A stretch of DNA of 26,924 bases from a virus, in IMG/VR virus record IMGVR_UViG_3300046005_001267, positions 1 through 26,924 of that record; one strand, given 5' to 3'. The position numbers and the translations under genes are program-made. Below, in pieces: positions 662 to 22,804 of this stretch (position 1 is the stretch's first letter; every line of letters starts with the position of its first letter). The notes beneath the pieces are model-generated. The model worked only from the letters and a program-made list of their open reading frames with translations. It searched no databases and was not told the DNA's origin.

Positions 662-667
662 GAACCC

Positions 668-680
668 ATATTTATAGTAT
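668..680 (+). promoter_or_regulatory. Putative late-type promoter motif (ATATTTATAG) before the nuclease gene
   Basis: ATATTTATAGTAT lies 33 bp upstream of the ATG at 701. The same core occurs at 5935, 7279 and 8199, each time just upstream of a gene. No TTTGG box sits at the 19-bp distance used by the other promoter class. The late role is inferred from the genes it precedes. Confidence 0.45.
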
Positions 681-700
681 ATACAAAAACATGCTATAAT

Positions 701-4300: not shown

Positions 4301-5907
4301 AAAAATATATTAAATTTTTAGAAAGATGTATTAATACACAAGTTAAGGGTAAGAAACCACCTGTAACTGAACTAATCGCTCAGGGAGGAGCAGGGCAAAT
4401 TCAATCTCAATTTGGTGAAGTGATGGCAATGGCATTTATGTCAATCAGAGACCCACAGCAAAGAAGACAACTTGCTGATATTATGAACGCTGAAATACAA
4501 AAATCAGTAGAAGAATTTGGTGGTGGTAAGCAAAGTCCAATTGCAACTAAAGATTGGGTTGAAGCATCACTAACACATGCCGAAGCATTTGATTCAGCAA
4601 TGGATGAGAAGTATGGTAAAGGACAGTGGAAATTTGAAGGAGCTGCTTGGGATATTAAAGCTGATATAGAATCATTGGGATTGGATTATAAAAATAAAGG
4701 ATTCTCAACTGATGTAATGTTAAGAGTTCAACCTTTAGATAAAAATGGTAAACCAAATGGACCGGCTAGAGCACAAAAGAACTCATTAAAAAAAGATGAA
4801 AACATTTTTTTCTTTAATGGTTCAATCAATGAAGTTAATAATTTTGTATTAAATTTCTTAGATGAGAAAGAAAGAAAGAGAGTAAAAGGATATGAAGCGA
4901 TAGCAACAAAAGCGGGAGCATCAAATAAAAATCCAGAAGATAGAGCAGCAGCATTAGCAGCAGCTGAAAGAATTACGGGATTGAAAGGAGCTAAAGCAGT
5001 AGCAGCATTAAAACAAATGTCAGCAGATATTAGAAATAAAGCTTTTGAAGCAGCACCACAAAATGTTAAAGATGCAGTTTCTAAAGTTAGAAATTTTGGA
5101 GCAGCTCAAACGGCATCTGCTGAAAGATTAATTAAAACAGTAAATACTGATATTAAAAATCCAAACAATGTAATTGATAATGCAAAAAACATTGATGGTG
5201 GTGATAAGGATTTTGCTAAATTCTCATATAAAGCAGTTAAAGAATGTAAAGCTAGTGGTACTAAAGATATGACTACATGTATAAGACAAAAATTAAGTAA
5301 AGCTGGTGAAGATACAACTGATGATAGAATATGTAAAGTAGCTGTTTTAGCTTCTAAAGTAGCTATAGCTGCTGGTGATACTAACGCTGAAAAGGCTTTA
5401 AATAAACACTATAATTTAGCAGTTGAAGCTGGAAACGCTTTAATGGAAGTATTACCTGAAAGTGAAGAACTAATGGGAGGTTTGATGCAGAAATTAGCAG
5501 ATGCATTCCCAATGAAGACTTGTATGCAGGGTGAAGAATTTATGTGTATTGATGGTATGAAAGTAACACAAAAGACTTTACAAACTGTATTTGGTGTGGA
5601 TTCTTATGATGAATTACAAAAAGGTATGAAATTAAAGAGATTACCAAGTGGTGAAACTATATTGGTATATGGTGCTAAAGATAAAAACGGAGAAGATATT
5701 CCTATTGGTGTGGTTGGTGCTAGACAAAAGGGTAAGGGATACGAAGGAACTGTTGGTTTTGAGATATCTTGTTCTGATGATTTTGCATTGGCTGTAGCTG
5801 AAGCAAATAAGAAAAACGGAGATGCATCGGAATCAAATGAAAAAGCTAGACAATCTATTGGTAAGAGAGTAGCTACTAGAAAAGTAAAGGCTGATAAGAA
5901 AAAATAG
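1303..5907 (+). CDS. Giant 1534-residue multidomain phage protein (ParB-like and nuclease-like signatures)
   Basis: I do not recognise a named family for the whole protein. Residues about 110-240 are low-complexity Lys/Glu/Gly. VDGHHRWAA at 453-461 resembles the core of ParB-like/sulfiredoxin-fold domains. Residues about 597-780 hold IVFVGEGG and later TIAGEGHIDLV, faintly like TraB/Tiki-type GxxH motifs. Residues about 821-865 are a module repeated in the protein at 7303. Residues about 1010-1190 hold QFGEV (E1039), FSTDVML (D1137) and NSLKK (K1163), compatible with a PD-(D/E)XK nuclease core. The C-terminal part (about 1340-1534) has several Cys and no known motif. The ATG overlaps the upstream stop in TAATG. 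Size and position in the late block suggest a virion or co-injected protein, but no structural motif proves it. The gene is clearly coding; its function is open. Confidence 0.6.
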   Translation: MNMNISELINEILSEWAYRVDDGQPNPKNEKHLAQLSIVLSEMGLSNIKDELFENITEADKKFTNPILNKEIPYKGADGTSKTGIVGNLLRLPKDSPGRVAAEKLMPPEGSPERDSVMQDLGSEKDGKSTGGDKEKGKEGEKGKEGEGEKGGGEEEKAKAAQAMFDPKADPAMGARLDREKAANDKLAQKDKEDSDAEKSAEVPKEDGKFSEPSNPPPQNEKGVEKDGKVDGTTIETEPGLDDIDSNLLKQRVTEMDKYWADHKADVKKAEGIAREKMGYSEEQAKGLKKGTPEKAAYDKEVKKNQQPTYNLCKVSIPNSNLFCNGNKNIPRAEMPQFKGEPVEGSQAWDVLQKAKEKDPTATEAEGEPYFRQMLADKGIKVTDAEVPSENLKATQNELVGDKVLGMESGIAEAMADTMPDGSPKTEEQKVKDEKTKKNLLAPIFVSNDGYVVDGHHRWAAITRYNMEHPDKPIPLKVMIIDQPIDDAIKTSNEFASEFGVAAKSGKQAGPGAGPNAEPPANEPSRPNTNPTEDKSTIKSMKGESKIIKGKKSGKDIQTIEMEGGGMVFGTQHRNTKMVDDIIDNIKSTIPQEKWKDIVFVGEGGVTNKDTGELVFNDEMDYAVPKFQEIGAGVDTFDGDELDVHKPDSKLYKKQIEKTGLNQSQVNAGNWASMIGQGEGTDTMKTTTFLDDSGKQFLNDAAKEAGFPEIKNWDEPTEQDIDTLYRLSFPEDNGDKETKINDIQVAFNEIRDENILEKTKELQAKGKIPITIAGEGHIDLVNNMMKNENVQYMNEENLQLADKLMLEMIYGFIDEASTTGNPKLAARSKKTGKLVYFSTPQSKKAAIANGTHEDPKAKKGAPTKVAGSDMDYRQTPDIKKDKIVVAPKVTKKATDTPPTKKERSETNNPYKKNGDEGETILDIKPEEIDSILEKYVNAGEATPDDMRELAPKYSNQDMADGYSDEDYYSKNKKRTTAVRKQPYKVNNKTRLELKNAGFPEKYIKFLERCINTQVKGKKPPVTELIAQGGAGQIQSQFGEVMAMAFMSIRDPQQRRQLADIMNAEIQKSVEEFGGGKQSPIATKDWVEASLTHAEAFDSAMDEKYGKGQWKFEGAAWDIKADIESLGLDYKNKGFSTDVMLRVQPLDKNGKPNGPARAQKNSLKKDENIFFFNGSINEVNNFVLNFLDEKERKRVKGYEAIATKAGASNKNPEDRAAALAAAERITGLKGAKAVAALKQMSADIRNKAFEAAPQNVKDAVSKVRNFGAAQTASAERLIKTVNTDIKNPNNVIDNAKNIDGGDKDFAKFSYKAVKECKASGTKDMTTCIRQKLSKAGEDTTDDRICKVAVLASKVAIAAGDTNAEKALNKHYNLAVEAGNALMEVLPESEELMGGLMQKLADAFPMKTCMQGEEFMCIDGMKVTQKTLQTVFGVDSYDELQKGMKLKRLPSGETILVYGAKDKNGEDIPIGVVGARQKGKGYEGTVGFEISCSDDFALAVAEANKKNGDASESNEKARQSIGKRVATRKVKADKKK
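1705..1740 (+). repeat. Perfect 18-bp tandem duplication inside the giant gene
   Basis: GAGAAAGGTAAAGAGGGT occurs twice back to back (1705-1722, 1723-1740), with a degenerate continuation after it. It is in frame and encodes the Glu-Lys-Gly-rich linker of the 1303 protein. It probably arose by slippage and is a likely length-variable linker. Confidence 0.85.
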
Positions 5908-5934
5908 AGTTTTTACCCTTCCTTTTGGTTTTTG

Positions 5935-5948
5935 ATATTTATAGGTAA
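5935..5948 (+). promoter_or_regulatory. Putative late-type promoter motif (ATATTTATAG)
   Basis: ATATTTATAGGTAA lies in the 61-bp gap after the giant gene, 34 bp before the ATG at 5969. That spacing nearly matches the copy before the nuclease (33 bp). It could drive the 5969 gene and the endolysin. Confidence 0.45.
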
Positions 5949-5968
5949 TAAAAGAAATAAGAGGAAGA

Positions 5969-6400
5969 ATGAAGACACAGTTACTTTGTACATTTACAAC
6001 AAAGGAGGAGTTACAAAACACCTTACAGCAAATAAGAGAGACTTATCATATAGTTTACAACTATATATACATATTGCAAAATAAGTCCAATTTAGAAGAA
6101 TTGTTTGTGACATACAATATAGATACAGCTTTCCAACCGGATACTCCATTGGAAAATACAATCCTTATACATAGAAAGAAGGAATCTAATTCACTATACA
6201 CTATAAATGCTCTTAACGAATTAGTTAAAGAGGAAAATGGTGGGGTATTAGATACATCTTTTGTCATCAATTGGCAGAAGTTCAAAAATTCAATCATATT
6301 AACAAACGCCGAAGGAACTAAGAAAATTCAAACAAGAGTTTTTGAGGTAATTGATTTCGGAGAAGGAAATAAAGAAGTTACGGAAGGACAATCTAAATAA
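5969..6400 (+). CDS. Conserved-looking small phage protein of unknown function
   Basis: The 143-residue protein has no signal peptide, membrane segment or recognisable catalytic motif. The N-terminus (MKTQLLCTF) leads into a helical region, then a segment with ENTILIHRKKE and SLYTINALNELV, then GGVLDTSFVINW. From memory, similar short proteins occur in marine T4-like phages without an assigned role, but I could not confirm this. It follows the giant gene with an ATATTTATAG motif in between. It ends 8 bp before the endolysin gene, so the two probably share a transcript. That supports late expression and a possible virion or lysis-related role, which is inference only. Confidence 0.6.
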   Translation: MKTQLLCTFTTKEELQNTLQQIRETYHIVYNYIYILQNKSNLEELFVTYNIDTAFQPDTPLENTILIHRKKESNSLYTINALNELVKEENGGVLDTSFVINWQKFKNSIILTNAEGTKKIQTRVFEVIDFGEGNKEVTEGQSK

Positions 6401-6408
6401 TTTTTATT

Positions 6409-7251
6409 ATGTTATTAAAAAAGGGAGATAATAACGAAAACGTAAAGTTAATGCAACAAAAGCTGGGTATTGAACCAGCGGTAACTAACTTTGGACCAAA
6501 AACTGAAGCAGCTGTAAAAGAATGGCAGGCAAAGAATGGTTTAACTGCAGATGGTATTGTAGGACCATCAACTTGGGCAAAGATTATGGGAGAATCGGTA
6601 GCAGCAGCTCCTACTCCAATTGTATCTACACCAATAGCATCAGTAGGTGGATTAAAATTGGAAAAATTAAAAGGACATATTCCCGATGCAGTTATCGCAA
6701 TGATTCCTGCAGTAGCACAAAAGTTCCAAATTGATTCTGCATTAAGATTAGCACACTTCTTAGCACAATGTGGACATGAGAGTGGTGGATTCCGTTTGAC
6801 AAAAGAAAACTTAAACTATTCAGCTAAAGGTTTGAATGGTATCTTTAAGAAATACTTTCCAACTTTAGAATCAGCTCTACCTTACGAAAGAAAGCCGGAG
6901 AAGATTGCAAACAAAGTATATGGTGGTAGAATGGGTAATGGTCCTGAAGCAAGTGGTGATGGTGCAAAGTTTTGTGGTAGAGGATATATCCAATTAACAG
7001 GAAAAGATAACTATACCGCATTTGGTAAATCAATTGGTGAAGATGTTTGTGCTAACCCACAAGTAGTAGCTGAAAAATACGCATTATTATCAGCAGCATG
7101 GTTCTTCAACAAAAACGGATTACACAAAATGGCTGATGGTGGAGCAAGTGATACAGTTGTAACATCTATTACTAAAAGAGTAAATGGTGGTACTATTGGA
7201 TTGCCTGATAGAATTAAACACTTTAAAGAGTATTATCACTTATTAGCGTAA
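6409..7251 (+). CDS. Endolysin: peptidoglycan-binding domain plus GH19 lysozyme/chitinase-type domain
   Basis: The 280-residue enzyme has an N-terminal PG_binding_1 domain (residues about 3-60, with LMQQKLG, FGPKTEAAVKEWQ and DGIVGPSTW). An Ala/Pro/Thr linker (61-80) follows, then a glycoside hydrolase family 19 catalytic domain (about 85-280). GH19 hallmarks are AHFLAQCGHESGGF with the putative general acid E124, ENLNYSA with E133, GRGYIQLTG at 190-198, and VNGGTIGLPDR near the end. It should cut the beta-1,4 glycan backbone of peptidoglycan. There is no signal peptide or membrane anchor, so release would need a holin; none is seen in the window. It lies 8 bp after the 5969 gene. Family assignment is firm. 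The lysis role is inferred, since a virion-borne version of the same enzyme is possible. Confidence 0.92.
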   Translation: MLLKKGDNNENVKLMQQKLGIEPAVTNFGPKTEAAVKEWQAKNGLTADGIVGPSTWAKIMGESVAAAPTPIVSTPIASVGGLKLEKLKGHIPDAVIAMIPAVAQKFQIDSALRLAHFLAQCGHESGGFRLTKENLNYSAKGLNGIFKKYFPTLESALPYERKPEKIANKVYGGRMGNGPEASGDGAKFCGRGYIQLTGKDNYTAFGKSIGEDVCANPQVVAEKYALLSAAWFFNKNGLHKMADGGASDTVVTSITKRVNGGTIGLPDRIKHFKEYYHLLA

Positions 7252-7277
7252 TATTTGGTAAATTAATAAAAAAGTTG

Positions 7278-7292
7278 TATATTTATAGTATA
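7278..7292 (+). promoter_or_regulatory. Hybrid promoter: TTTGG-N19-TATATTTA with ATATTTATAG motif
   Basis: TATATTTATAGTATA is preceded by TTTGG at 7254-7258 with exactly 19 bp between, the spacing of the other promoter class. The last base of the -7 box is A instead of G. The same sequence also matches the ATATTTATAG motif. The ATG at 7303 is 24 bp past the core. Confidence 0.5.
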
Positions 7293-7302
7293 ACATAAAA
7301 AC

Positions 7303-8028
7303 ATGGCAAATATTAGATTAAAAGAGTTAGTAGAAGCTAACGTAGACCCTAAATTGGTAGCAAGAAGTAAAGAAAGTGGAAAGCTGGTTTATTTCAAAAC
7401 ACCACAAGCTAAAGATGCAGCAGTAAAAGCTGGTTCTCACTTAGAACCTAAAGGTAAAAAAGGTGGTGAACCTAAAGCAGATGCAAAACCAAATAATATG
7501 TTTGGTAAGGATTATTCAAAAGATAGAGGGGGTGATACAAAAATACAAGCATTTAAATCAGCAGATGGTTCTGATGTTGGACCTAACAAATATACAACAG
7601 CAATATCAAAAATTAGACCATCTGATTCATCAATGAAAATAAAATCAGAACCAACTCCAAAAATTGTTGGAAATTGGAAACCTGATGAAGATGGTAAATT
7701 GGGTAGTGATGCAGCTGATGATGTAAGAAATCATTTAAATGATGTATTGGGTGTTGATGGTATGGCTGAAATAGATTATAATACTGGAAATATTCAATAT
7801 GGTTTATCAGATGGTGAAAATAGTATTTTTGTTGGTAATGAGGATGGTACATATAATGTATCATTTGAAGGACCTTCTATGGATATAGATAAAATCAATC
7901 AATCGTATAAATCATTCAAAAATCCAAAAGAAGCCGTAAAATATGCTGGTGAATTGGCAAAAGCAAATAGAGAGGGATTAGAACAAAAGCAAGAATCAAC
8001 GAAACTAACATCAATGATTAAAAGATAA
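7303..8028 (+). CDS. Unknown 241-residue protein sharing a module with the giant protein
   Basis: Residues about 15-60 (DPKLVARSKESGKLVYF, a TPQxK motif and a KGKKG tail) closely match residues about 821-865 of the 1534-residue protein. Pattern: PKL-x-ARSK-x2-GKLVYF-x-TPQ-x-K-x-AA. The rest (60-241) is hydrophilic and Asp/Gly/Ser-rich, with no motif I recognise. There is no signal peptide or membrane segment. The gene has its own promoter-like element 24 bp upstream and a strong terminator directly after its stop, so it ends the late-looking block. The shared module may bind a common partner, for example a capsid component or DNA, so that both proteins are taken to the same place. That idea is inference only. 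Confidence 0.6.
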   Translation: MANIRLKELVEANVDPKLVARSKESGKLVYFKTPQAKDAAVKAGSHLEPKGKKGGEPKADAKPNNMFGKDYSKDRGGDTKIQAFKSADGSDVGPNKYTTAISKIRPSDSSMKIKSEPTPKIVGNWKPDEDGKLGSDAADDVRNHLNDVLGVDGMAEIDYNTGNIQYGLSDGENSIFVGNEDGTYNVSFEGPSMDIDKINQSYKSFKNPKEAVKYAGELAKANREGLEQKQESTKLTSMIKR

Positions 8029-8032
8029 AAAC

Positions 8033-8064
8033 AAAAGGGAGAAACTAAAAATTCTCCCTTTTTT
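8033..8064 (+). terminator. Rho-independent terminator closing the late-looking block
   Basis: An 11-bp perfect stem (AAAAGGGAGAA 8033-8043 with TTCTCCCTTTT 8052-8062), an 8-nt loop and a run of T to 8064. It starts 5 bp after the stop of the 7303 gene and just before the replication promoters. Confidence 0.9.
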
Positions 8065-8065
8065 A

Positions 8066-8097
8066 TTTGGCAGTATCAGGAATTTTTCGTATCTTTG
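8066..8097 (+). promoter_or_regulatory. Bacteroidota-type promoter (TTTGG-N19-TATCTTTG), SSB operon distal
   Basis: TTTGG at 8066-8070 and TATCTTTG at 8090-8097, with 19 bp between. The spacer carries the family signature TCAG then ATTTTTCG directly before the -7 box. It overlaps the terminator tail. Confidence 0.75.
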
Positions 8098-8156
8098 AGT
8101 AAATCTCAAACCCATATAAATGCGTAATTCGGTTATAAAATATACTTCAAAAAAGA

Positions 8157-8188
8157 TTTGGAAAGTCCAATAAATTGTTGTATATTTG
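8157..8188 (+). promoter_or_regulatory. Bacteroidota-type promoter (TTTGG-N19-TATATTTG), SSB operon proximal
   Basis: TTTGG at 8157-8161 and a perfect TATATTTG at 8181-8188, again 19 bp apart. The spacer lacks the TTTTTCG signature and has ATTGTTG instead, so it may belong to a different expression class from the upstream copy. Confidence 0.7.
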
Positions 8189-8197
8189 TAATCTCTT

Positions 8198-8207
8198 TAT
8201 ATTTATA
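8198..8207 (+). promoter_or_regulatory. Late-type motif (TATATTTATA) before the SSB gene
   Basis: TATATTTATA lies 10 bp downstream of the proximal promoter and 67 bp before the SSB ATG. It matches the motif seen before the late-looking genes. Three promoter-like elements are therefore stacked upstream of the SSB gene. Confidence 0.4.
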
Positions 8208-8274
8208 TACATAGAGGGTGAAGGACACTCACCTAAATAAAACCATAAAACATAAACTCTTAAAACGCAAAAAA

Positions 8275-9099
8275 ATGGCTATTAACTTAGACGCAATCAG
8301 AGGTAGACTGAACAAACTACAAAGCACAACTTCAAAGAAAGTAGAACTTTGGAAACCAGCTCCGGGCAAACACACTATTCGTTTAGTCCCTTACAAATTC
8401 AACAAAGAGAATCCTTTTATTGAATTATTCTTTCACTACAACATTAACAACAAATCTTATCTATCTCCATCTTCTTTTGGCAGACCTGACCCTATCGTTG
8501 AGTTCGCTGATAAGTTGAAAAGAATGGGTGATAAAGAAGATTGGAAAGCTGCCAAGAAAATGGAGCCGAAACTTAGAACATTCGTACCAGTATTGGTAAG
8601 AGGTGAAGAAGGTGAAGGTGTAAGATTCTGGGGCTTTGGAAAAACTGTATATCAAGAAATTCTTGGTTACATCGCTGATCCTGATTATGGTGATATTACT
8701 GACCCAAATGAAGGTAGAGATATTACTGTTGAAGTAGTATCAGCTGAAGACAGTGGTACTTCTTACCCTGTAACAACAATCCGTGTTAAACCAAAAGAAA
8801 CTCCTTTAGCAGCAACTAAAGAAGAAACTGATAAGTTTATCAATGGACAAACCGAAATCACAGACCTTTACCAGGAATTGACTTATTCGGAATTGAAATC
8901 TGTATTAGAAGGTTGGTTAAACCCATCCGCTAATGGTGATGAAGATACATCTACTGCAGCAGCAGAGACGTTAGCATCTACCGCAAAAAATGACGAAGCA
9001 CCTTTTGATGTTGATGTTAAATCAGCACCTAAAGTAGAAGCATCAGCTAAGAAAATAGATGATGTGGCATCAGCATTTGATGACCTTTTCAATTCATAG
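8275..9099 (+). CDS. 32: Single-stranded DNA-binding protein, T4 gp32-like
   Basis: I chose the ATG at 8275 (274 residues). The GTG at 8218 would add a Lys-rich, unlike-family extension that lies in the leader. The N-terminus (AINLDAIRGRLNKL) fits the gp32 self-association region. The core follows gp32 order: an LWKPAPGKHTIRLVPY strand, FFHYNINNKSYLSP, and RFWGFGKTVYQEI, which parallels T4 KYRFGKKIWDKI. An acidic tail ends FDDLFNS, the usual docking site for replication partners. It coats single-stranded DNA during replication and recombination. T4 gp32 binds zinc through one His and three Cys; this protein has no Cys, so the zinc site is gone. It leads the cluster with uvsX 16 bp downstream. 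Three promoter-like elements upstream suggest high, multi-phase expression. Confidence 0.88.
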   Translation: MAINLDAIRGRLNKLQSTTSKKVELWKPAPGKHTIRLVPYKFNKENPFIELFFHYNINNKSYLSPSSFGRPDPIVEFADKLKRMGDKEDWKAAKKMEPKLRTFVPVLVRGEEGEGVRFWGFGKTVYQEILGYIADPDYGDITDPNEGRDITVEVVSAEDSGTSYPVTTIRVKPKETPLAATKEETDKFINGQTEITDLYQELTYSELKSVLEGWLNPSANGDEDTSTAAAETLASTAKNDEAPFDVDVKSAPKVEASAKKIDDVASAFDDLFNS

Positions 9100-9115: not shown

Positions 9116-10240
9116 ATGGCAAAAGCAACTAAAGAGGTTGACTTGGCGGAAGTACTCGTTGAGTCCCTTAACAAACAATCAAAAGACCAAAAGGTAGCAT
9201 TCTTTTTAGATAATGATGATGCACCAACAAACGTAGAAGGCTGGGTATCAACCGGAGCATCTATGTTGGATGTGGCAATATCAAATCGCCCTTATGGTGG
9301 ATTACCGGTTGGAAGAATCACCGAAATTACGGGATTAGAACAAAGTGGTAAATCATTAGTATCAGCTCACTTACTTGCGGAAACGCAGAAGCTGGGTGGA
9401 TTGGCAGTATTGATTGACACGGAAAACGCCGTAAGTAGAGAATTCTTAGAAGCCATCGGAGTAGATACAACCAAATTACTTTATGTAGCAGCTGAAACTG
9501 TTGAACAATGTTTTGAATATACCGAAACTATTATTGAGAAGGTAAGAACTTCCTCTAAAGACAAGTATGTGACAATCGTTGTGGATTCAGTAGCAGCAGC
9601 ATCAACTGAAAAGGAGATGGAAGCTGATTATGGTAAGGATGGTTACGCTACGGATAAAGCAATTATCATTTCCAAAGCAATGCGTAAAATCACAAATCTT
9701 ATTGGTAGACAGAAAATCACTCTAGTTTTCACAAACCAATTAAGACAGAAGATGAACGCAATGCCATTCTCTGACCCTTGGACTACATCGGGTGGTAAAG
9801 CAATCGCTTTCCACGCATCGGTTCGTTTGAGATTAAAGAGTATGGGAACAATTAAAGCTAAAGATGGTAGTGGTAACGAAAGAATTGTTGGTATCAAAGT
9901 AAGATGCCAGGTTGTAAAGAATCGTATGGGACCACCATTACGTTCAGCAGATTTTGATATCTTCTTTGATAGAGGTATTGATAACTACGGCGCATGGTTG
10001 GGTAGTATGAAAGAAAACGCAATTGTGAAACAAAGTGGAGCTTGGTATGAATACATTGATATTGATTCAGGCGAAGTGATTAAGTTCCAAGCGAAAGATT
10101 TTCCGCTTACATTAGATTCTAACCCTGGTGTTAGAGAGCAAATCTATAAAAGGATTTGTGAGGCAACAATTTTAAGATACAAAAAAGATTCATTAGACAC
10201 TGATAATTTAGTAGTAGATTCAGAAGTGATTGGTGATTAA
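9116..10240 (+). CDS. uvsX: RecA/UvsX-type recombinase
   Basis: The 374-residue protein has the RecA ATPase core. Walker A is GLEQSGKS (73-80), IDTEN (100-104) carries the putative catalytic Glu103, and Walker B is TIVVDS with D157. FTNQLRQKM leads into the DNA-binding loop 2 region and TTSGGKAIAFHASVRLRL, which parallels RecA. It should form filaments on single-stranded DNA, displacing the SSB, and drive strand exchange for recombination-dependent replication. Length is close to T4 UvsX. The gene lies 16 bp after the SSB gene and is followed after 19 bp by RNase H, so the cluster is probably one operon. Bacterial RecA is the alternative, but the gp32/RNase H/gp41 neighbours favour UvsX. Confidence 0.92.
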   Translation: MAKATKEVDLAEVLVESLNKQSKDQKVAFFLDNDDAPTNVEGWVSTGASMLDVAISNRPYGGLPVGRITEITGLEQSGKSLVSAHLLAETQKLGGLAVLIDTENAVSREFLEAIGVDTTKLLYVAAETVEQCFEYTETIIEKVRTSSKDKYVTIVVDSVAAASTEKEMEADYGKDGYATDKAIIISKAMRKITNLIGRQKITLVFTNQLRQKMNAMPFSDPWTTSGGKAIAFHASVRLRLKSMGTIKAKDGSGNERIVGIKVRCQVVKNRMGPPLRSADFDIFFDRGIDNYGAWLGSMKENAIVKQSGAWYEYIDIDSGEVIKFQAKDFPLTLDSNPGVREQIYKRICEATILRYKKDSLDTDNLVVDSEVIGD

Positions 10241-10259: not shown

Positions 10260-11303
10260 ATGAAAGACTTATACAAAAAGCTTCTTAACGAAGTAGAATC
10301 AGAACATGAGACATCACACTTAAGAGTGCGTAATAGTAGAGTTCTTGTCATTGATGGACTTAATACCTTCATCCGTAGTTGGACTACCAACCCTACAATG
10401 AATGAGGATGGTGACCATACGGGTGGAGTTATTGGTTCATTAAATTCAATTGGTTCTCAAATACGCCAATTCAATCCGACTAGAGTAGTTCTTATCTTTG
10501 ATGGTAAGGGTGGTTCTAAAGGTAGAAAGGAAGTGTTTGAAGGATACAAAGCTGATAGAGGTAAAAATCGTTTTAGAGTTAATAGACAATATCCTGAAAT
10601 GATGTCACAGGAAGAAGAACAACTTTCAATGAAACGCCAATTCGTTTGGTTAGTTGATTTGTTAGATTCACTTCCAATTACAACAATGATATATGATGGA
10701 ATTGAGGCCGATGATGTGATAGCTAACATAGCTAGACAAATATTAGGTGAAGATGAAGAATGTATTATTGTATCAACGGATAAAGATTTCTTACAATTAG
10801 TAGATGATAAGACGAAAGTTTATTCACCAACTAAAAAGAAACTTTATGATAGAGAGATGGTAAAAGCAGAATGGGGAATGTACCCACAAAACCTTTTACT
10901 ATTCAGAACATTGGATGGTGATAATTCAGATAATATTCCTGGCGTTAAAGGATGTGGTTTAAAGACTGTATTGAAAAGATTTCCTGAATTAGAGGAAGAT
11001 AGATTAATTACCTTTGATGAATTCTTTGGTATATGTGAATCTAAAAAAGATGATGCTAAAATATACGCTGATATCCTTTCTCAAAGAAATGAGGTATTAA
11101 GAAATAGGCATCTGATGCAATTAGAAGAAGCACATATCAATACAAACCAAACTCTTAAAATATTAGACCGTTTTAACGAACCTAATAAAAAGTTTGATAA
11201 GTTTGATTTTATTAAGGCAGCAATGAAATATAAGATACTACAAAACTGGAAAGATATAAACGATTGGTTGAAATCAACTTATACAAATATAATAGTAAAA
11301 TAG
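10260..11303 (+). CDS. rnh: 5'-3' exonuclease / RNase H (T4 Rnh-like, FEN family)
   Basis: The start is taken at the ATG at 10260 (347 residues). A TTG at 10230 would overlap uvsX and is unlikely. FEN-family acidic clusters appear in order: VLVIDGLN (D32), LIFDGKGGSKGRK (D81), YDGIEADD (E149, D151, D152) and STDKDFLQL (D174, D176). DGDNSDNIPG then leads into the helix-hairpin-helix GCGLKT. The enzyme should remove RNA primers and flaps from lagging-strand fragments, helped by the SSB. It is longer than T4 RNase H (305) because of an N-terminal stretch of about 25 residues. It is followed directly, without a gap, by the helicase gene (TAG then ATG), so translation is coupled. Confidence 0.9.
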   Translation: MKDLYKKLLNEVESEHETSHLRVRNSRVLVIDGLNTFIRSWTTNPTMNEDGDHTGGVIGSLNSIGSQIRQFNPTRVVLIFDGKGGSKGRKEVFEGYKADRGKNRFRVNRQYPEMMSQEEEQLSMKRQFVWLVDLLDSLPITTMIYDGIEADDVIANIARQILGEDEECIIVSTDKDFLQLVDDKTKVYSPTKKKLYDREMVKAEWGMYPQNLLLFRTLDGDNSDNIPGVKGCGLKTVLKRFPELEEDRLITFDEFFGICESKKDDAKIYADILSQRNEVLRNRHLMQLEEAHINTNQTLKILDRFNEPNKKFDKFDFIKAAMKYKILQNWKDINDWLKSTYTNIIVK

Positions 11304-12698
11304 ATGGCAGAGCAAGTAGATACACTCTCTAAATATGGGCAATCGTTTCAAGCTAAAGTAATATCTGCTTTACTTACCGATGTTAGAATGATGGACACTT
11401 TGTGTGAAATCATTGATAAGAAGTTCTTTGAATCCGATGCTAACAAATGGATAGTACAAGAGATTAAAGATTATTACGATGAGTATAAGAAAGAACCTAC
11501 ATTGGACGTATTCAAAGGGCAAGTATCAAAGCTAGATAATCCATCATTAAAGAAATCAGTAGTAGAACAACTCAAAACGGTCTACACACAAATTGGACAA
11601 GATGATTTTGAATATGTAAAAAACGAATTCACATCATTTTGTATCAATCAGAATATGAAAAATGTAATTCTACAATCAGTAGATTTACTTAAATCAGGCA
11701 ACTACGATAGAATCAAAGACTTAGTTGATAAGGCTATGAAGGTTGGGGTTGAATCGGATTTGGGTATGGATTACCTTTTAGATTTTGAGGAAAGATTTAG
11801 TGATACTGGTAGAGAGACTGTTGCAACTGGATGGGATTGTATTGATGATTTGATGGGTGGTGGAATTGGACCTGGCGAATTGGGAGTAGTAGTAGCACCT
11901 TCTGGTGTTGGTAAGACTTGGGCATTAGCAGCATTAGGAGCAGCAGCCGTAAGAGCTGGTAAGACTGTGGTACATTATACATTAGAACTTTCACAACATT
12001 ATGTGGGATTGAGATATGATACTGTATTTACACATATACCATCAACCGATTTAAAAGAAAAGAAAGATGAAGTATTTGCTAAACTTAAAAGATTACCTGG
12101 TAAACTTAAAGTTAAATACTTTCCACCAAAAGGAGCATCATCAAAAACAATCCAACTTCATATTGAAAAGATGATAGCAGCTGGTAATAAGCCCGATTTA
12201 ATTATTGTGGATTACGCTGACTTGTTATTATCACACTCAAACAAAACCGATAGTACATACGCTGAGCAAGGTGGGGTGTATATTGATTTGAGAGGAATGA
12301 GTGGTGAATTACAAATACCAATTTGGACAGCATCACAAACAAATCGTTCAGCAATTGATAGTGAAGTTATTGAAGCAGATAAGATTGCAGATAGTTACGC
12401 TAAAGTAATGAACGCTGACTTTATTATGAGTTTAAGTAGAAAAGCAAAAGATAAGTTGAACAATACGGCTAGAGTACACATTATGAAGAATCGTTTTGGA
12501 CAGGATGGTATTACCTTCCCAACTAAAATGGATACAACTACTGGAACAATAGAAGTATATGCAGCTACATCATCCGAAGGAATCATAGCATCAAAAGAAA
12601 GTGCTAATGGTGCCGAAATGGAAAAACAAATGTTACACAAAAAATATTTAGATACAATGCCTGGCTCAAAACCAACGCAAGTATCTGGATTAGGTTAA
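11304..12698 (+). CDS. 41: Replicative DNA helicase, DnaB/T4 gp41-like
   Basis: The 464-residue protein is about the length of T4 gp41. An N-terminal helical region (1-150) resembles the DnaB N-domain, starting with SALLTDVRMMDTL. The RecA-fold ATPase follows: Walker A APSGVGKT (198-205), HYTLELSQ with the putative catalytic Glu, Walker B LIIVDYADLLL (D303), and the sensor-like IWTASQTNR. Near the end, MKNRFGQDG matches the DnaB arginine-finger region. It should unwind DNA 5'-3' on the lagging strand as a hexamer. No primase gene is in the window. It starts right after the RNase H stop. The small histone-like gene follows 26 bp later, before a terminator. Confidence 0.93.
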   Translation: MAEQVDTLSKYGQSFQAKVISALLTDVRMMDTLCEIIDKKFFESDANKWIVQEIKDYYDEYKKEPTLDVFKGQVSKLDNPSLKKSVVEQLKTVYTQIGQDDFEYVKNEFTSFCINQNMKNVILQSVDLLKSGNYDRIKDLVDKAMKVGVESDLGMDYLLDFEERFSDTGRETVATGWDCIDDLMGGGIGPGELGVVVAPSGVGKTWALAALGAAAVRAGKTVVHYTLELSQHYVGLRYDTVFTHIPSTDLKEKKDEVFAKLKRLPGKLKVKYFPPKGASSKTIQLHIEKMIAAGNKPDLIIVDYADLLLSHSNKTDSTYAEQGGVYIDLRGMSGELQIPIWTASQTNRSAIDSEVIEADKIADSYAKVMNADFIMSLSRKAKDKLNNTARVHIMKNRFGQDGITFPTKMDTTTGTIEVYAATSSEGIIASKESANGAEMEKQMLHKKYLDTMPGSKPTQVSGLG

Positions 12699-12724
12699 TA
12701 ATAAAACAATAAAAAACAAAAACT

Positions 12725-12895
12725 ATGAACAGTCAAGAACTATTCGAACAAATGAAGACTTTGTTTACACAATTTGAAACAGAGCACAACGGAACTAAAA
12801 AAGTAAACAAATCAAGAGCTAGAAAAGCTATCGGTGATTTGAAGAAATTAATCACTGCGTATAGACAAGCATCTACCGCAGAGCAAAAAGCATAA
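12725..12895 (+). CDS. Histone H1-like (Hc1-type) small DNA-binding protein
   Basis: A 56-residue protein that begins MNSQELFEQMKTLFTQFE and continues with NKSRARKAIGDLKKLI and TAYRQAS. The layout is an amphipathic helix, then a basic segment with a S/T-RARKA box, then a Lys-rich helix. This is the plan of the short histone H1-like proteins common in Bacteroidota, where the box is often GTRARKA. It would bind DNA without strong sequence preference. Possible jobs are compacting phage DNA, shaping host chromatin or regulating transcription. It is the last gene of the SSB-helicase operon, 26 bp after the helicase, with a terminator 7 bp after its stop. Coding status is strong from position and fit; the family call is by pattern. 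Confidence 0.75.
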   Translation: MNSQELFEQMKTLFTQFETEHNGTKKVNKSRARKAIGDLKKLITAYRQASTAEQKA

Positions 12896-12901
12896 TATGA
12901 T

Positions 12902-12924
12902 AGGGGAGCTAACACTCCCCTTTT
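12902..12924 (+). terminator. Rho-independent terminator after the histone-like gene
   Basis: A 7-bp perfect stem (AGGGGAG 12902-12908 with CTCCCCT 12915-12921), a 6-nt loop and a T run. It ends the SSB-uvsX-rnh-helicase-histone operon. Confidence 0.85.
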
Positions 12925-12974
12925 ATTATGTTTTAATAGACTATGTATTATGACACGAATAAATTTAAAAAAAA

Positions 12975-13072
12975 GTGGGTTTTTTATCCACAAACCTGTA
13001 TTGTTTAGTGGCAGACAGTATATTTATTCTTACATTTTAGGAGTTTCCTGAAATATTTTAACACACTAAACA
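12975..13072 (+). promoter_or_regulatory. Structured leader of the ribonucleotide reductase gene
   Basis: Within the non-coding stretch 12925-13086 there are nested inverted repeats. A hairpin GTGGGT/ATCCAC spans 12975-12991 (one G-U pair). A 9-bp perfect long-range pair joins TGTTTAGTG (13002-13010) to CACTAAACA (13064-13072). Inside it, a 9-bp hairpin with a GTT loop spans 13034-13054 (one G-U pair). TATATTTATT at 13019-13028 resembles the late-type motif. An operator, an RNA control element or both are possible. It does not look like a cobalamin riboswitch. No TTTGG-N19-TATATTTG promoter is present here. Confidence 0.5.
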
Positions 13073-13086
13073 CAAATTTACAAAAA

Positions 13087-14943
13087 ATGGACATTTCAAC
13101 ACGAATTTTATCGGACATTACGGTTTATATGAAGTACGCAAAGTACAGACCGGAATTAAAAAGGAGAGAAACTTGGAAGGAGTTGGTAAAAAGAAATATG
13201 GATATGCATATAAAAACATATCCAAATTTAAAAGAGGAAATAAAAGAAGTATATAAATTCGTATCGAATAAAAAAATATTACCATCAATGCGTTCAATGC
13301 AGTTCGCAGGTAAACCAATTGAATTATCACCAAATAGAATTTACAATTGTGCATTTGCACCGGTAGATGATTGGAGAGTGTTTTCAGAAATTATGTTCTT
13401 ACTATTAGGTGGAACTGGAGTAGGTTATTCAGTACAACAACATCACGTTGATTGTTTGCCTGAAATCAGAAAGCCATCAACTGATAAGACAAGAAGATTT
13501 TTAATCGGTGATAGTATTGAAGGATGGGCTGATGCAGTTTCGGTAATTGTAAAAGCATATTTCTTCGGTGGTAGTAAGCCGGTATTTGATTTTAGAGATA
13601 TTAGAGAGAAAGGAGCACGATTGGTAACATCGGGTGGTAAAGCACCAGGCCCTCAACCATTGAAAGAGTGCCTTATCAAATTAGAAGGTATCTTAGATGC
13701 AAAAAAAGATGGTGAGAAATTAAAACCAATTGAAGTGCACGATATGGTTTGTCACATTGCTGATGCAGTATTAGCAGGTGGTATCCGTAGAGCAGCATTA
13801 ATTGCATTATTTTCTGCAACTGATGAACAAATGATTAGTTGTAAGAGTGGTGCATGGTGGGAAACAAATCCACAAAGAGGTAGAGCAAATAACTCAGCAG
13901 TATTAATGAGACATAAAATTACCAAAGAGTATTTTATGGACTTATGGAAAAGAATTGAAGCAAGTGGAGCAGGTGAGCCTGGTATCTACTTATCAAATGA
14001 TAAAGATTGGGGAACTAATCCTTGTTGTGAGATTGCATTAAGACCTTTCCAATTCTGTAACTTATGTGAAGTGAATGTAAGTGATGTTGATACTCAAGAA
14101 GAATTAAATGCTAGAGTTAAAGCAGCATCATTTGTAGGAACATTACAGGCTGGATATACTGATTTTCATTACTTAAGACCAATTTGGCAAAGAACAACTG
14201 AAAAGGATGCCTTAATAGGAATCTCAATGACAGGAATCGGAAGTGGTGCAGTTTTGAAATTAGATATGAAAGAAGCAGCAAAAGTTGTAAAAATAGAAAA
14301 CAAAAGAGTGGCAGAAATATTAGGTATTAACGCATCGGCAAGATGTACAACGGTTAAGCCTGCTGGAACTACTTCATTGGCATTAGGAACTTCATCTGGT
14401 ATTCACGCTTGGCACAATGATTACTATATTCGTAGAGTAAGAGTTGGTAAAAACGAATCAATGTATTCTCATTTATTATTAAATCATCCTGAATTAGTAG
14501 AAGATGAGTATTTCAGACCGCATGATACGGCAGTAATTGGTATTCCACAAAAGGCACCTGATACTGCAATCTTTAGAACGGAATCTCCTATTCAATTATT
14601 AGAGAGAGTTAAGAAAGTACATAGTGAGTGGGTTAAGCCGGGACATAGAAGCGGTAACAATACTCACAACGTATCAGCAACAATTTCTATTAGAGAGCAT
14701 GAGTGGAAAGCAGTTGGAGAGTGGATGTGGGAGAATAAAGAATTCTACAATGGATTATCAGTATTACCTTATGATGGTGGTACTTACATTCAGGCACCAT
14801 TTGAAGATTGTACTAAAGAAAAATACGATGAACTTATGAAAACATTAAATGATGTTGATTTAAGTAAGATAGTTGAAATAGAAGATATGACTGATTTAAG
14901 TGGTGAGCTAGCTTGTGCTGGTGGTGCATGTGAAATAAAATAA
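13087..14943 (+). CDS. nrdJ: Class II (adenosylcobalamin-dependent) ribonucleotide reductase
   Basis: The 618-residue enzyme reduces ribonucleotides, probably triphosphates, to supply dNTPs. Its active site matches the monomeric Lactobacillus leichmannii enzyme. N311, C313 and E315 in TNPCCEI correspond to N406, C408 (thiyl radical) and E410. C324 in FQFCNL is 11 residues after C313, as C419 is after C408. C88 in YNCAF matches C119. The C-terminal CAGGAC, a C-x4-C pair, matches the tail cysteines that thioredoxin re-reduces. No second (NrdB) subunit is nearby, as expected for class II. It is shorter than the 739-residue reference. The stop overlaps the next start (TAATG), and thioredoxin follows one gene later. 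The cobalamin cofactor must come from the host. Confidence 0.9.
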   Translation: MDISTRILSDITVYMKYAKYRPELKRRETWKELVKRNMDMHIKTYPNLKEEIKEVYKFVSNKKILPSMRSMQFAGKPIELSPNRIYNCAFAPVDDWRVFSEIMFLLLGGTGVGYSVQQHHVDCLPEIRKPSTDKTRRFLIGDSIEGWADAVSVIVKAYFFGGSKPVFDFRDIREKGARLVTSGGKAPGPQPLKECLIKLEGILDAKKDGEKLKPIEVHDMVCHIADAVLAGGIRRAALIALFSATDEQMISCKSGAWWETNPQRGRANNSAVLMRHKITKEYFMDLWKRIEASGAGEPGIYLSNDKDWGTNPCCEIALRPFQFCNLCEVNVSDVDTQEELNARVKAASFVGTLQAGYTDFHYLRPIWQRTTEKDALIGISMTGIGSGAVLKLDMKEAAKVVKIENKRVAEILGINASARCTTVKPAGTTSLALGTSSGIHAWHNDYYIRRVRVGKNESMYSHLLLNHPELVEDEYFRPHDTAVIGIPQKAPDTAIFRTESPIQLLERVKKVHSEWVKPGHRSGNNTHNVSATISIREHEWKAVGEWMWENKEFYNGLSVLPYDGGTYIQAPFEDCTKEKYDELMKTLNDVDLSKIVEIEDMTDLSGELACAGGACEIK

Positions 14944-15405: not shown

Positions 15406-15609
15406 ATGGCAATTTTAAGAGGGCAGCAACACCCGTCAGCAAAACTGACAGATGAGCAAGTTTTAATCATTAGAGACCTATGGAGAATGGGTCATCGCAA
15501 TATTAAAGTGATTGCCCAAAACAATAAGGTATCACCATCAAATGTATTAAAGATAATCCAACGTAAAACTTGGAATCATTTAAATCAATTTTGGTCTGGT
15601 AGCTTATGA
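15406..15609 (+). CDS. Small helix-turn-helix protein (homing endonuclease-type DNA-binding domain)
   Basis: The 67-residue protein reads SAKLTDEQVLIIRDLWRMG, then VIAQNNKVSPSNVLKII and KTWNHL. This matches the HTH module usually found at the end of HNH homing endonucleases (K-L-T-x3-V-x2-I-R, then a helix-turn-helix, then W-x-H). No nuclease domain is attached. It could be a free-standing regulator or a leftover from an endonuclease gene. Its stop overlaps the next start (ATGA at 15606-15609), so it is coupled to the first Mom-like gene and might regulate it. Confidence 0.65.
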   Translation: MAILRGQQHPSAKLTDEQVLIIRDLWRMGHRNIKVIAQNNKVSPSNVLKIIQRKTWNHLNQFWSGSL

Positions 15610-16379
15610 AAGTAGAAAATAAACAATATTGCGATATCTCTAAATTTTCTATTAGAGAGATTAATAAGAACATAGCAAAGGATATCATTGTCAATAACCA
15701 TTATAGTGGGATATGGACGAAGGTATCCTATGCCATTGGATTATTTTATATATCCGAAGATGAGCACAATTTCTTTAGTGGGGTGAATGAACAATTGGTT
15801 GGAGTTGCCTGTTATGGTGACCCGGTTGGTAGAAATGCCGGCGCATCTATTTCCGAATTACTGCCTAGAGATGGTGTATTAGAATTAACTCGTCTATTCG
15901 TATTTGATGGATATGGTACTAACATTGAGAGTTGGTTCGTTGGGCAATCTTTTGAATGGTTGAGAACTAATGTACCTCGTATAAAAGCACTAATATCTTA
16001 TTCAGACCCAAACGCTGGACACTTAGGAACAGTATATCAAGCTACCAATTGGATATATCAGGGAAATAAAATCAGATGGTCAGATAGTTGGAGTTTTAAG
16101 TGGAGTGAGGATGATGAATGGCATCACTCTCGCACATCTTATGTGAAGTATGGAACGAATGACCCGAAGATAATTCAGACAATGGTTACAAGCCCATTCT
16201 GGATTAAAAGAGAACCTCGTAAGCACCGATATGTATATATTCTAACCAAAGATAAGAAAGAGCGTAAATCGTTCTTAAAATCGCTTAAACATGAGGTATT
16301 TCCATATCCAAAGGTAGAGTTGGATATTATTGATGAGGTTCATAAAATGGACCCAATAGATTTGGTAGTTTCAGAATAA
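15606..16379 (+). CDS. Mom-like acyltransferase (DNA adenine modification), copy 1
   Basis: The 257-residue protein has the order of motifs of the phage Mu Mom family, a GNAT-fold group. They are NHYSG (31-35), YG (70-71), LELTRLF (92-98), SYSD (131-134) and GHLGTVYQATNWIYQG (138-153). Near the C-terminus are RKHRYV and LKHEVFPYPK. In Mu, Mom turns adenine into a carbamoylmethyl derivative that protects phage DNA from restriction; the substrate here is unknown. It is clearly paralogous to the gene at 16638: both start MKVE-x-K-x-YCD and share the HY, ELTRL, SY-x-D and YQATNWIYQG blocks. It is translationally coupled to the HTH gene before it. The promoter for the 16400 gene lies in its last codons. 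Family call is good; the actual reaction is inferred. Confidence 0.75.
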   Translation: MKVENKQYCDISKFSIREINKNIAKDIIVNNHYSGIWTKVSYAIGLFYISEDEHNFFSGVNEQLVGVACYGDPVGRNAGASISELLPRDGVLELTRLFVFDGYGTNIESWFVGQSFEWLRTNVPRIKALISYSDPNAGHLGTVYQATNWIYQGNKIRWSDSWSFKWSEDDEWHHSRTSYVKYGTNDPKIIQTMVTSPFWIKREPRKHRYVYILTKDKKERKSFLKSLKHEVFPYPKVELDIIDEVHKMDPIDLVVSE

Positions 16380-16399: not shown

Positions 16400-16654
16400 A
16401 TGGCAAGAGTAGAACCCAACGTTAAGGATAAACCACGTAAATTTGAACACATCTACAAAGATGATGATGGATGTGAATCAATTTGGAAGTACGATTTGGA
16501 TAAATTCGCAAATGGACCTATATCAGTAGAAAACAAATATCCTACTGGGTATATAAAGGATTTGAAACAAAAACAAAGATTAGCAAAGGCTGAACGGAGT
16601 TTATCTATTTTAGAAAAAGCAAAACAAGCAAAACAAAATGAAGGTAGAAGGTAA
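16400..16654 (+). CDS. Unknown 84-residue charged protein between the two Mom-like genes
   Basis: No family is recognised. The N-terminal half holds FEHIYKDDDGCESIWKYDL and PISVENKYPTGYIKD. The C-terminal third is a Lys/Ala/Gln-rich helix (QRLAKAERSLSILEKAKQ) that may coil. There is no signal peptide or membrane segment. A strong promoter ends 7 bp before its ATG. Its 3' end overlaps Mom-like copy 2 by 17 bp, so the two are likely made together. A helper or regulator of the modification enzymes is possible from position alone. Confidence 0.6.
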   Translation: MARVEPNVKDKPRKFEHIYKDDDGCESIWKYDLDKFANGPISVENKYPTGYIKDLKQKQRLAKAERSLSILEKAKQAKQNEGRR

Positions 16655-17438
16655 AAATTATTGTGATACATCCAAAGTATATGTAGCACCAATAGCAAAG
16701 AGTATCGCTAAAGATATTATTGTTAAGAAGCACTATACTCACGCTTGGACAGCTTGTAGATATGCAATTGGAATATATTACAAATCAGAAGATGCCAATA
16801 CCTTTGATGGTGATAAACTTATAGGTTGTTTAATCTATGGTTTTCCTGTTGGAGCAAAAGCATCCACTTCTATTTGTGAAGGATTAACTAAAGATAACAT
16901 TTTAGAATTGACCCGTTTATATTGTGATGATGGGTATGGTTCTAATATTGAATCATTTGCATTAGGACAATCTTTCAAATGGTTAAAGGAAAACGATAAA
17001 GCAATTAAGGTATTACTATCATACGCCGATAACGGACAAGCTCACTTAGGAGGAATTTATCAGGCTACCAATTGGATTTATCAGGGATTATCTACGGATA
17101 TTGCATTGATGCCAAATTGGGGTATATCATTACACAAAGACCCGTATCAATGGATTCATAGTAGGACTGTGTTTTCAATGTGGGGTAGTGGTAACTTAGC
17201 ACACTTACAAATGGAAATAGGTAAGCAAGGATATAAAGAGTTTTGGAGAAGGGAAGAACCACCAAAGCATAGATATGTTCAATTACTTGCGCAAGATAAA
17301 AAAGAAAAAAAAGATTTGATGAAACGATTGAAGCATGAGATTAGACCTTATCCAAAAGATACGGCATCTTATAATACGGAAGTGGTTCATCACCCAACAA
17401 CATACGAAGCACCTGAAGGAGCTGAAAATTTTTGGTAA
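16638..17438 (+). CDS. Mom-like acyltransferase (DNA adenine modification), copy 2
   Basis: The 266-residue paralogue of the 15606 gene has the same motif order: KKHYTHAW (31-38), YGFPVG (67-72), LELTRLYCDDGYGSNIES (89-106), SYAD (128-131), AHLGG then YQATNWIYQG (135-150). PPKHRYVQLL and LKHEIRPYPK lie near the end. The start ATG overlaps the 16400 gene by 17 bp. The two copies have diverged in length and in the middle regions, which points to an old duplication or separate gains and perhaps different substrates. The C-terminal tail after PYPK is unique. The glycosyltransferase gene follows after 3 bp. A role in modifying phage DNA against restriction is inferred from Mu Mom. Confidence 0.75.
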   Translation: MKVEGKNYCDTSKVYVAPIAKSIAKDIIVKKHYTHAWTACRYAIGIYYKSEDANTFDGDKLIGCLIYGFPVGAKASTSICEGLTKDNILELTRLYCDDGYGSNIESFALGQSFKWLKENDKAIKVLLSYADNGQAHLGGIYQATNWIYQGLSTDIALMPNWGISLHKDPYQWIHSRTVFSMWGSGNLAHLQMEIGKQGYKEFWRREEPPKHRYVQLLAQDKKEKKDLMKRLKHEIRPYPKDTASYNTEVVHHPTTYEAPEGAENFW

Positions 17439-21199: not shown

Positions 21200-22804
21200 A
21201 TGAGTAACTTCATACCACAAACCGCTCCAGTCTTAAATCAAAAAGCAAAAAAGCAAATAATTTTACAAAGTAAAAAGCCAATCTTAACAATAGGAGCTGC
21301 TAAGAAAGCAGCATCAACTAATATTGAATGGTATCATGTTCTATCCGAATTAGCAGATAATGCTATTCTTGTTGATAAATCAAAATGCGTTAATGTTACT
21401 ATTAACATGCATTACAATGAAGATAATGAAAAATCTTATATAGAGGTTATTGATGATTCAATAGGTATTCCAGAAAAGGATATATTGAATATATTTGATT
21501 ATGGTCAATCTGCAAATCAAGGTAAGATGTTATTGTGTAAAATGGGTATGGGCTTAAAAGGTGCAATATGGGGATTGGGTGAATTTGATTATTTAATAAC
21601 AAAAACATCAAACGGTAATAAGTGCCAGGCTCAACCAATGAAATATGATAGCGATTCTGATATATTGGAATATATTCAAATTAAACCATCATCATCTGAA
21701 TTAGATGCACAATTAAGTGGTACTATTGTTAAAATAAAACGTGTTAATGATAAGTTGCCAAATTGGACAAATCAATCTCACTTTGATGCATTTGTTTTTA
21801 AAATAAATAGTATGTATGCAAACTTATTGCATGAATCAAGAGTTAAGATACACATTTCTTATAGTAATAGTTCTGGTTCTAAATGGTATAAAGAATGCGT
21901 AGGTAGTTTCCCATTAATGTCTAATCCTAGACATTTGTTAAACAATGATATTAGTATTGGATTTAACGAGCCAACATATATAAAAGATACAACAACACCT
22001 ATTGATAAAATAGAAATCAAAACAAAAAATACTAAAGTAAAACTTACGGCTTGGCACAAACCAACTCCAAATCAAGTTGAAAAGTATTTTGATACTTCTA
22101 AAAGTAAAGCATATAATCCTCAAACATATAAAGATTCTCTATTTGGATATGGGTCAGAAACTGGAGGTATTACAATTATGTATAGAGGTAAGTATATTGA
22201 GTTTGGTGTAGAAAAACATGCATCTAGAACCGAAAATCAGGGTATTATTTTGGAGATGGATGATGATAGTGGATTATCATTTACTGGATACAAAAACACT
22301 TTACAAAAAAACAACAATTATAGAGAGATGTTAGAAGCTGTTGATGCTTTCTTAAAAGAAAACGGATTTTTTGTTCGTTCAATAGTAGGAACACCATCGG
22401 TTGAGGAAGATGAAATTGTTAAGAAGTTTTTAGAATATATTCAAACAGATGCAATATATTTAGAGAGTCTTGGTATAGAAAGTTATCAAAAGCAAGTTGA
22501 AACTTGGATTAGAACTGAAGTTGGGGAAACTGATATTATTGTTAGAGATTACAATGATTCTGAAATAATTACTTGTGTTATTGAAGCTAAAAAAGATAGA
22601 TGCGGTGGATATGAAGCAGCTCAATTATGGGGATATATGGCATATCATAATTGCAAAAAAGGTATATTATTATCTGGAGCAGATGAACAACCATCCTTCA
22701 ATGTTATGATTAAATCTCTTAAAGATTTTTGTAATCTACCAGAAGTTGAAATTAAAAAAATGAATGTTAAAACTTTAAAGGCTGGTAAGTTTTTTAACAT
22801 TTAA
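21200..22804 (+). CDS. GHKL ATPase fused to a PD-(D/E)XK nuclease
   Basis: The 534-residue protein begins with a GHKL-type ATP-binding domain. The N-box is SELADNA (E50, D53, N54). The G1 box is DDSIGI (85-90), with Ser where Gly is usual. The G2 box is GMGLKGA (116-122). A middle region resembles the transducer part of MORC, MutL and Topo VI B proteins. The C-terminus has a PD-(D/E)XK core: GETDIIV with D445, IEAKKD with E462 and K464, and AAQLWGYMAY with the helix Gln often seen in this class. It may use ATP to clamp DNA and then cut it. The gene stands alone between two promoters of the same type, in the replication cluster. It is not the T4 topoisomerase large subunit, since the nuclease is extra. 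Recombination, host DNA breakdown and inter-phage conflict are all possible. Confidence 0.75.
   Translation: MSNFIPQTAPVLNQKAKKQIILQSKKPILTIGAAKKAASTNIEWYHVLSELADNAILVDKSKCVNVTINMHYNEDNEKSYIEVIDDSIGIPEKDILNIFDYGQSANQGKMLLCKMGMGLKGAIWGLGEFDYLITKTSNGNKCQAQPMKYDSDSDILEYIQIKPSSSELDAQLSGTIVKIKRVNDKLPNWTNQSHFDAFVFKINSMYANLLHESRVKIHISYSNSSGSKWYKECVGSFPLMSNPRHLLNNDISIGFNEPTYIKDTTTPIDKIEIKTKNTKVKLTAWHKPTPNQVEKYFDTSKSKAYNPQTYKDSLFGYGSETGGITIMYRGKYIEFGVEKHASRTENQGIILEMDDDSGLSFTGYKNTLQKNNNYREMLEAVDAFLKENGFFVRSIVGTPSVEEDEIVKKFLEYIQTDAIYLESLGIESYQKQVETWIRTEVGETDIIVRDYNDSEIITCVIEAKKDRCGGYEAAQLWGYMAYHNCKKGILLSGADEQPSFNVMIKSLKDFCNLPEVEIKKMNVKTLKAGKFFNI

Follow-up and report, generated by a model that had tools for sequence, protein, structure and literature searches.

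A small Hc1-family ("histone H1-like") protein encoded by T4-type phages of Bacteroidota

We report that a 56-codon open reading frame in a 26,924-nt virus record (IMGVR_UViG_3300046005_001267; the whole stretch analysed is referred to below as the window) is a real gene of the bacterial "histone H1-like" Hc1 family, and that many T4-type phages of Bacteroidota carry it. The gene is under purifying selection, and its phage copies form a branch of their own, well separated from the chromosomal Hc1 genes of Bacteroidota. With a probability that we put at about 0.48, we favour the reading that the product is a small architectural protein that works as a dimer on phage DNA; competing readings are weighed below together with the evidence that bears on them.

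An Hc1 gene closes a T4-type replication cluster

The window contains a T4-type replication region (Table 1), in which the Hc1 gene ends a cluster encoding gp32, UvsX, an exonuclease and a helicase. A first-pass annotation of this DNA had described a basic protein with an S-RARKA box, located at the end of a replication operon, directly after the helicase and before a terminator, and this observation is borne out. The Hc1 start lies 26 nt past the stop of the DnaB-like helicase gene, a GC-rich terminator-like hairpin with a T-rich tail follows, and the protein, which contains the segment KSRARKA, has a net charge of +5 and a pI of 9.9, with lysine and arginine making up 20% of its residues. 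The charge is unevenly divided, residues 1-22 carrying -3 and the remainder +8. Membership in the Hc1/H1-like family, which had also been proposed, is upheld by a profile search: the protein matches Pfam PF07432 (Hc1) at 31.3 bits (E 1.8e-7; curated cut-off 23.5 bits) over profile positions 2-56 of 57. Other copies score 44.0 bits (L150, in a head module), 36.9 bits (L083, from a metagenome-assembled genome [MAG]), 24.2 bits (L104) and, slightly under the cut-off, 22.3 bits (L169).

Table 1. Features of the window around the Hc1 gene.
Feature	Position	Strand	Details
gp32-like single-strand DNA-binding protein	8275..9099	+	PF08804, phrog_1192
UvsX/RecA recombinase	9116..10240	+	PF00154, phrog_97
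5'-3' exonuclease, T4 Rnh-type place	10260..11303	+	PF02739, phrog_107
DnaB-like replicative helicase, directly upstream of Hc1	11304..12698	+	PF03796, phrog_19
A-rich gap (26 nt), helicase stop to Hc1 start	12699..12724	+	similar A-rich stretches precede the gene in relatives; no promoter of its own assigned
Hc1-type (PF07432) gene	12725..12895	+	56 aa; ATG at 12725, stop ending 12895; predicted two-helix hairpin
Terminator-like GC-rich hairpin	12902..12921	+	AGGGGAG-CTAACA-CTCCCCT, T-rich tail
Conserved promoter-like element 3' of hairpin	12927..12938	+	TATGTTTTAATA, core TGTTWTAATA
Second conserved block, before ribonucleotide reductase gene	13021-13027		TATTTAT, invariant in 41/41 distinct Hc1-downstream stretches
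Class II-type (B12) ribonucleotide reductase, next gene after Hc1	13087..14943	+	PF02867, PF21995
Mom family gene	15606-16379		PF25680, DNA modification
Mom family gene	16638-17438		PF25680, DNA modification
534-aa ORF	21200-22804		GHKL-type ATPase-like by eye, with extra C-terminal domain; no PHROG match

Further searches with the window protein gave no competing assignment above threshold. Its Pfam matches to PF11603 (Sir1; 20.5 bits, cut-off 24) and PF12758 stayed under their cut-offs, its PHROG matches were weak (E 0.0028 to a family of unknown function, then E 0.12), and an NCBIfam search returned no match. HU/IHF (PF00216) was absent among its Pfam matches up to E 10. At the nucleotide level, Rfam yielded solely a sub-threshold match on the minus strand of the locus (19 versus 75 bits). 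Since T4 carries the small double-strand DNA-binding protein DsbA next to rnh, in its 33-59-32 cluster, we also considered an identity with DsbA, which the available part of PMC7824862 describes as a GapR homologue; BLASTP found nothing, and the window protein matched neither PF11126 nor PF10073. T4 DsbA itself matches PF11126. We reject this identity, and DsbA is at most an analogue of the Hc1 protein.

On the far side of the ribonucleotide reductase gene, whose place after Hc1 is taken by NrdB in some relatives, the window encodes a family B DNA polymerase and an AAA+ clamp-loader-like protein. The window also holds two Mom family genes, and a Mom gene adjoins Hc1 in the relatives L087-L092.

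The noncoding sequence 3' of Hc1 has conserved features of its own. The hairpin is kept throughout the window lineage, its stem varying with compensatory changes; a perfect stem with a T tail occurs in just 49 of 72 relatives, the T tail often being absent. Across loci L002-L076 plus the window (604 kb), the core of the promoter-like element occurs 75 times directly after Hc1, nowhere else on the plus strand, and 7 times on the minus strand. We considered and rejected the idea that it is a common repeated promoter of these stretches, given that its plus-strand occurrences are confined to the 3' side of Hc1.

The gene is under purifying selection and single-copy in the long records that carry it

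When the viral collection was scanned with the Hc1 protein, 108 stretches matched; 93 of them encode a relative, and 80 were kept. The protein is complete in 77 of these 80 and cut by contig ends in the other 3. Thirteen contigs encode an identical 56-aa protein from six different DNA sequences, and within the window lineage (73 sequences, 38 distinct) dN/dS is approximately 0.11. In an alignment of 33 sequences, eleven positions never vary: F17, H21, K26, A32, R33, K34, G37, K40, T44, Y46 and S50.

To avoid selection by Hc1 itself, a second set of 80 loci was picked by the helicase; it draws on many of the same contigs as the protein scan. Hc1 is present in 70 of the 80, directly downstream of the helicase in 68 and about 1 kb further on in 2. 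Taken together, the identical proteins from distinct DNA versions, the low dN/dS and this recurrent position after the helicase show that the match is more than chance. Nine of the ten loci that lack Hc1 fall into one group with an nrdB-like gene immediately after the helicase, and the tenth shows methylase-like ORFs followed by the contig end. Hc1 is absent from all six records (47-207 kb) that were searched from the nrdB group (L291, L293-L300), so the gene is dispensable in that group; the other 16 long records each carry exactly one copy.

Hc1 occupies several gene contexts in Bacteroidota phages

A wider search of the viral collection found at least 510 stretches with an Hc1 relative. Contexts were compared for the 233 viral loci, out of 244, in which the ORF caller found Hc1 (it missed 11); these loci are related rather than independent events, and 7 contigs, all in the head class, were fetched twice. 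A helicase upstream is the commonest neighbour (99/233), followed by an upstream GroEL (55/233). In 23 loci, or 16 contigs once double fetches are set aside, Hc1 lies in a head cluster with a scaffold-like gene and gp23 downstream, mostly behind the gp21 protease. L150 provides an example: positions 231-8417 hold portal, S77 protease, a 98-aa ORF, Hc1, scaffold-like gene and gp23, in T4-type arrangement. Of the remaining loci, 17 have an oxidoreductase gene on the downstream side and 12 a member of an unknown gene family. Ribonucleotide reductase precedes Hc1 in 7 and follows it in another 7 that show no recognised helicase; 5 have a clamp loader as neighbour, and 8 fall into other contexts. 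Among the last are L169 and L171, in which Hc1 follows a T4-type portal gene, with the gp21 protease coming next in L169. Elsewhere, Hc1 follows a UvsX-like recombinase in a 634-kb uncultured phage.

Relatives also occur in an isolated phage, Flavobacterium phage immuto (host Flavobacterium sp. LMO8), where the gene lies after groES-groEL and is annotated as hypothetical. This accords with the link to Bacteroidota drawn in the first-pass annotation, a Bacteroidota host being likely for the window. As for other proteins of the long records, an S77 prohead protease is found in 12 of 21, including records of the helicase, GroEL, head and unknown-gene contexts, and no HU/IHF-type protein was detected in any of the 19 searched, 17 of which have Hc1.

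Phage and host Hc1 proteins form separate branches

Bacteroidota chromosomes encode PF07432 proteins resembling the phage protein, approximately 58 aa long in most of the 48 recovered. PF07432 is present in 117 of 198 sampled genomes of the phylum of G001, a Flavobacteriales MAG, and in 38 of 196 sampled genomes of its order, the other 158 having no recognisable Hc1. In a tree of 173 rows and 58 columns (many of its forks are open and its root is arbitrary), 42 Bacteroidota host rows lie on one side of a branch (support 100/90) and all phage rows on the other. The loop differs accordingly, being of GNKAAGTRxRK type in the host branch and HNGTxKxxxxxARK in the phage branch; the window protein neither groups with the host sequences nor keeps the host-type loop.

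G001 is the exception. A profile of the phage proteins matches 34 of the 196 order genomes, at no more than 40 bits in every case except G001, where it reaches 104 bits. The G001 gene (L083, 2995-3168) lies between rpsB and tsf, as named by eye from the translations; it is nested in the helicase-context phage clade, it is the sole phage-like chromosomal copy in Flavobacteriales, and of the 52 genomes in its family the other 51 lack it. The simplest reading of this pattern, and a probable one judging from the tree, is transfer from phage to bacterium, although the rpsB-tsf copy may be an assembly error of the MAG. The same observations speak against the recent acquisition from a host that had been proposed initially: phage copies make up one clade with the G001 copy inside it, and recent host-to-phage transfer is not supported by the tree. 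The MAG copies L084 (Candidatus Neomarinimicrobiota) and L085 branch beside the phage clade, so that this verdict concerns recent transfer and not the deep origin of phage Hc1.

The predicted fold and the chlamydial namesake

The predicted monomer is a two-helix hairpin (residues 3-21 and 26-55; mean pLDDT 96.9). The eukaryotic linker histone H1 has a winged-helix globular domain, a fold that this two-helix model does not match. A search of the PDB by sequence found no solved structure of a relative (best E 0.6). Foldseek with the hairpin model gave nothing at E <= 0.001 (best 0.54), and VIA-align reached Z scores up to 8.2, within the range that its own note calls common for helical arrangements; neither program thus returned a specific fold match. 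Lysine and arginine do not cluster significantly on a single face of helix 2 (P 0.077), and net charge runs from 0 to +6 over 124 distinct Hc1 proteins, so some relatives are weakly basic. An [LI]xE motif occurs near the N-terminus, inside the conserved helix 1, in 118 of those 124.

In chlamydial Hc1 (HctA), according to the available portion of PMC2848022, DNA binding resides in a lysine-rich C-terminal tail and dimerisation in the N-terminus; the window protein has no such tail and ends after the first domain. We infer that PF07432 covers the N-terminal part of the chlamydial protein, based on the 57-position profile, the chlamydial sequence and the hctA primer letters in the accessible part of PMC13317200. 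The window protein thus shares with HctA the conserved domain that PF07432 names, and the tail is likewise missing in most of the 48 recovered Bacteroidota host proteins. That domain we take to correspond approximately to the dimerisation part of chlamydial Hc1. If PF07432 is the N-terminal part, the name "H1-like" rests on a part of the protein that is not credited with DNA binding.

Discussion

Our preferred reading, of a dimeric architectural protein, would work as follows. The product would be a small alpha-helical hairpin of the PF07432 family, from a phage-specific branch in T4-type myoviruses of Bacteroidota, and would form homodimers, as the chlamydial N-terminal domain suggests. Its basic second helix (R33, K34, K40, K41 and R47) would bind and organise phage DNA, to judge by its charge, its family and its gene neighbours; that DNA would be the product of the replication proteins encoded beside Hc1, and the protein would act before or during packaging. 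Phage rather than host DNA is the probable target, considering those neighbours and how seldom the sampled Flavobacteriales carry a host Hc1. We favour the dimeric architectural reading because the basic residues are conserved, the gene is single copy, its neighbours encode DNA enzymes in several lineages, and no HU-like protein is found in the long records searched; the Pfam score above cut-off, the purifying selection and the confident hairpin model also argue for it. Against it stand the missing lysine-rich tail, the weakly basic relatives and the lack of significant clustering of basic residues on one helix face, as do the frequent place after GroEL, which is not a DNA-enzyme context, the related group that does without the gene, and the want of a solved relative or a specific fold match.

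An alternative that we consider unlikely, while giving it more credence than the other alternatives, is an internal head or packaging protein that enters the prohead with the core, is perhaps trimmed by the S77 protease, and comes to lie on the packaged DNA. The loci with Hc1 just before the scaffold-like gene and gp23 point in this direction, as do the two loci in which it follows the portal gene and the S77 protease genes found in long records of several contexts. The cleavage rule for T4 core proteins is an [LI]xE motif, and nearly all distinct Hc1 proteins carry one near the N-terminus; however, these residues belong to the conserved helix 1, so the motif may be unrelated to cleavage, and the proteins counted are not independent of one another. 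In addition, in the window's own lineage Hc1 sits in the replication cluster, and no virion proteomics could be found. Also unlikely, and ranked next, is a role in host takeover, in which the protein would bind host DNA, or host Hc1 through mixed dimers, and shut down host transcription or replication. Phage and host proteins share the domain and are of near-equal length, producing chlamydial Hc1 in E. coli depresses the synthesis of DNA and protein (as given in the available part of PMC12619734), the PHROG match at E 0.12 is a very weak one to a family named "inhibitor of host transcription", and the hairpin weakly resembles the phage anti-activator Aqs1 (E 0.76). Hc1 lies outside any obvious host-takeover cluster in the window, however, the phage and host branches are well separated, and recognisable Hc1 is missing from most of the order genomes, which makes a general antagonist of host Hc1 unlikely and weakens the earlier suggestion that the protein counters host chromatin.

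We give still less weight to an adaptor role, in which the domain would serve for dimerisation alone and link up with a replication or chaperonin partner without acting directly on DNA. The conserved domain does roughly correspond to the part of chlamydial Hc1 that dimerises (PMC2848022, available portion), and the gene tightly adjoins helicase or GroEL, but its neighbours vary between lineages, which argues against one fixed partner, and its basic residues are conserved. An RNA- or ribosome-linked role is very improbable: the copy between rpsB and tsf and the ribosomal-protein helical hairpins among the structure matches would fit it, but that placement occurs in 1 of 52 family genomes, and the structure matches are generic helical hairpins with Foldseek E values of 0.5 or worse.

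Returning to the architectural reading, PF07432 in phages is not new. Four complete moraphages encode a PF07432 histone H1-like protein, for which genome compaction for packaging has been suggested (PMC12619734, available part). As in the present case, the moraphages are large aquatic phages with a family B polymerase and predicted Bacteroidota hosts; that portion of the report discusses Hc1 with no analysis of its sequence or gene context. It gives DnaJ as the commoner moraphage chaperone, and we found DnaJ in none of 16 long records, which may be fragments; this keeps us from calling the window a moraphage. Among the matches listed in the open-licence literature there was no second report of a phage H1-like protein. 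Phage phi29 p6 and lambda NinH, as described in the partial sources available, are phage-encoded nucleoid-type proteins of other families. Beyond the available text of PMC12619734, the present analysis shows how widespread the family is and in which gene contexts it lies, that its phage copies form a clade, and that one copy has probably passed back to a bacterium.

A broader scenario, speculative and between the takeover and adaptor readings in the improbability that we assign to it, is that of a phage-specific linker-histone-like family that is near-standard in T4-type phages of Bacteroidota, has moved between replication, chaperonin and head clusters, travels inside the virion of some lineages at least, where it organises the DNA, and was passed back to a bacterium that keeps its copy in the rpsB-tsf operon. 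The viral collection holds the gene in 510 stretches or more, and the isolated phage that carries it has it annotated as hypothetical. With that isolate, Flavobacterium phage immuto, the idea of a phage histone-like protein can be put to the test in culture: whether the protein is in the virion, and on which DNA it sits.
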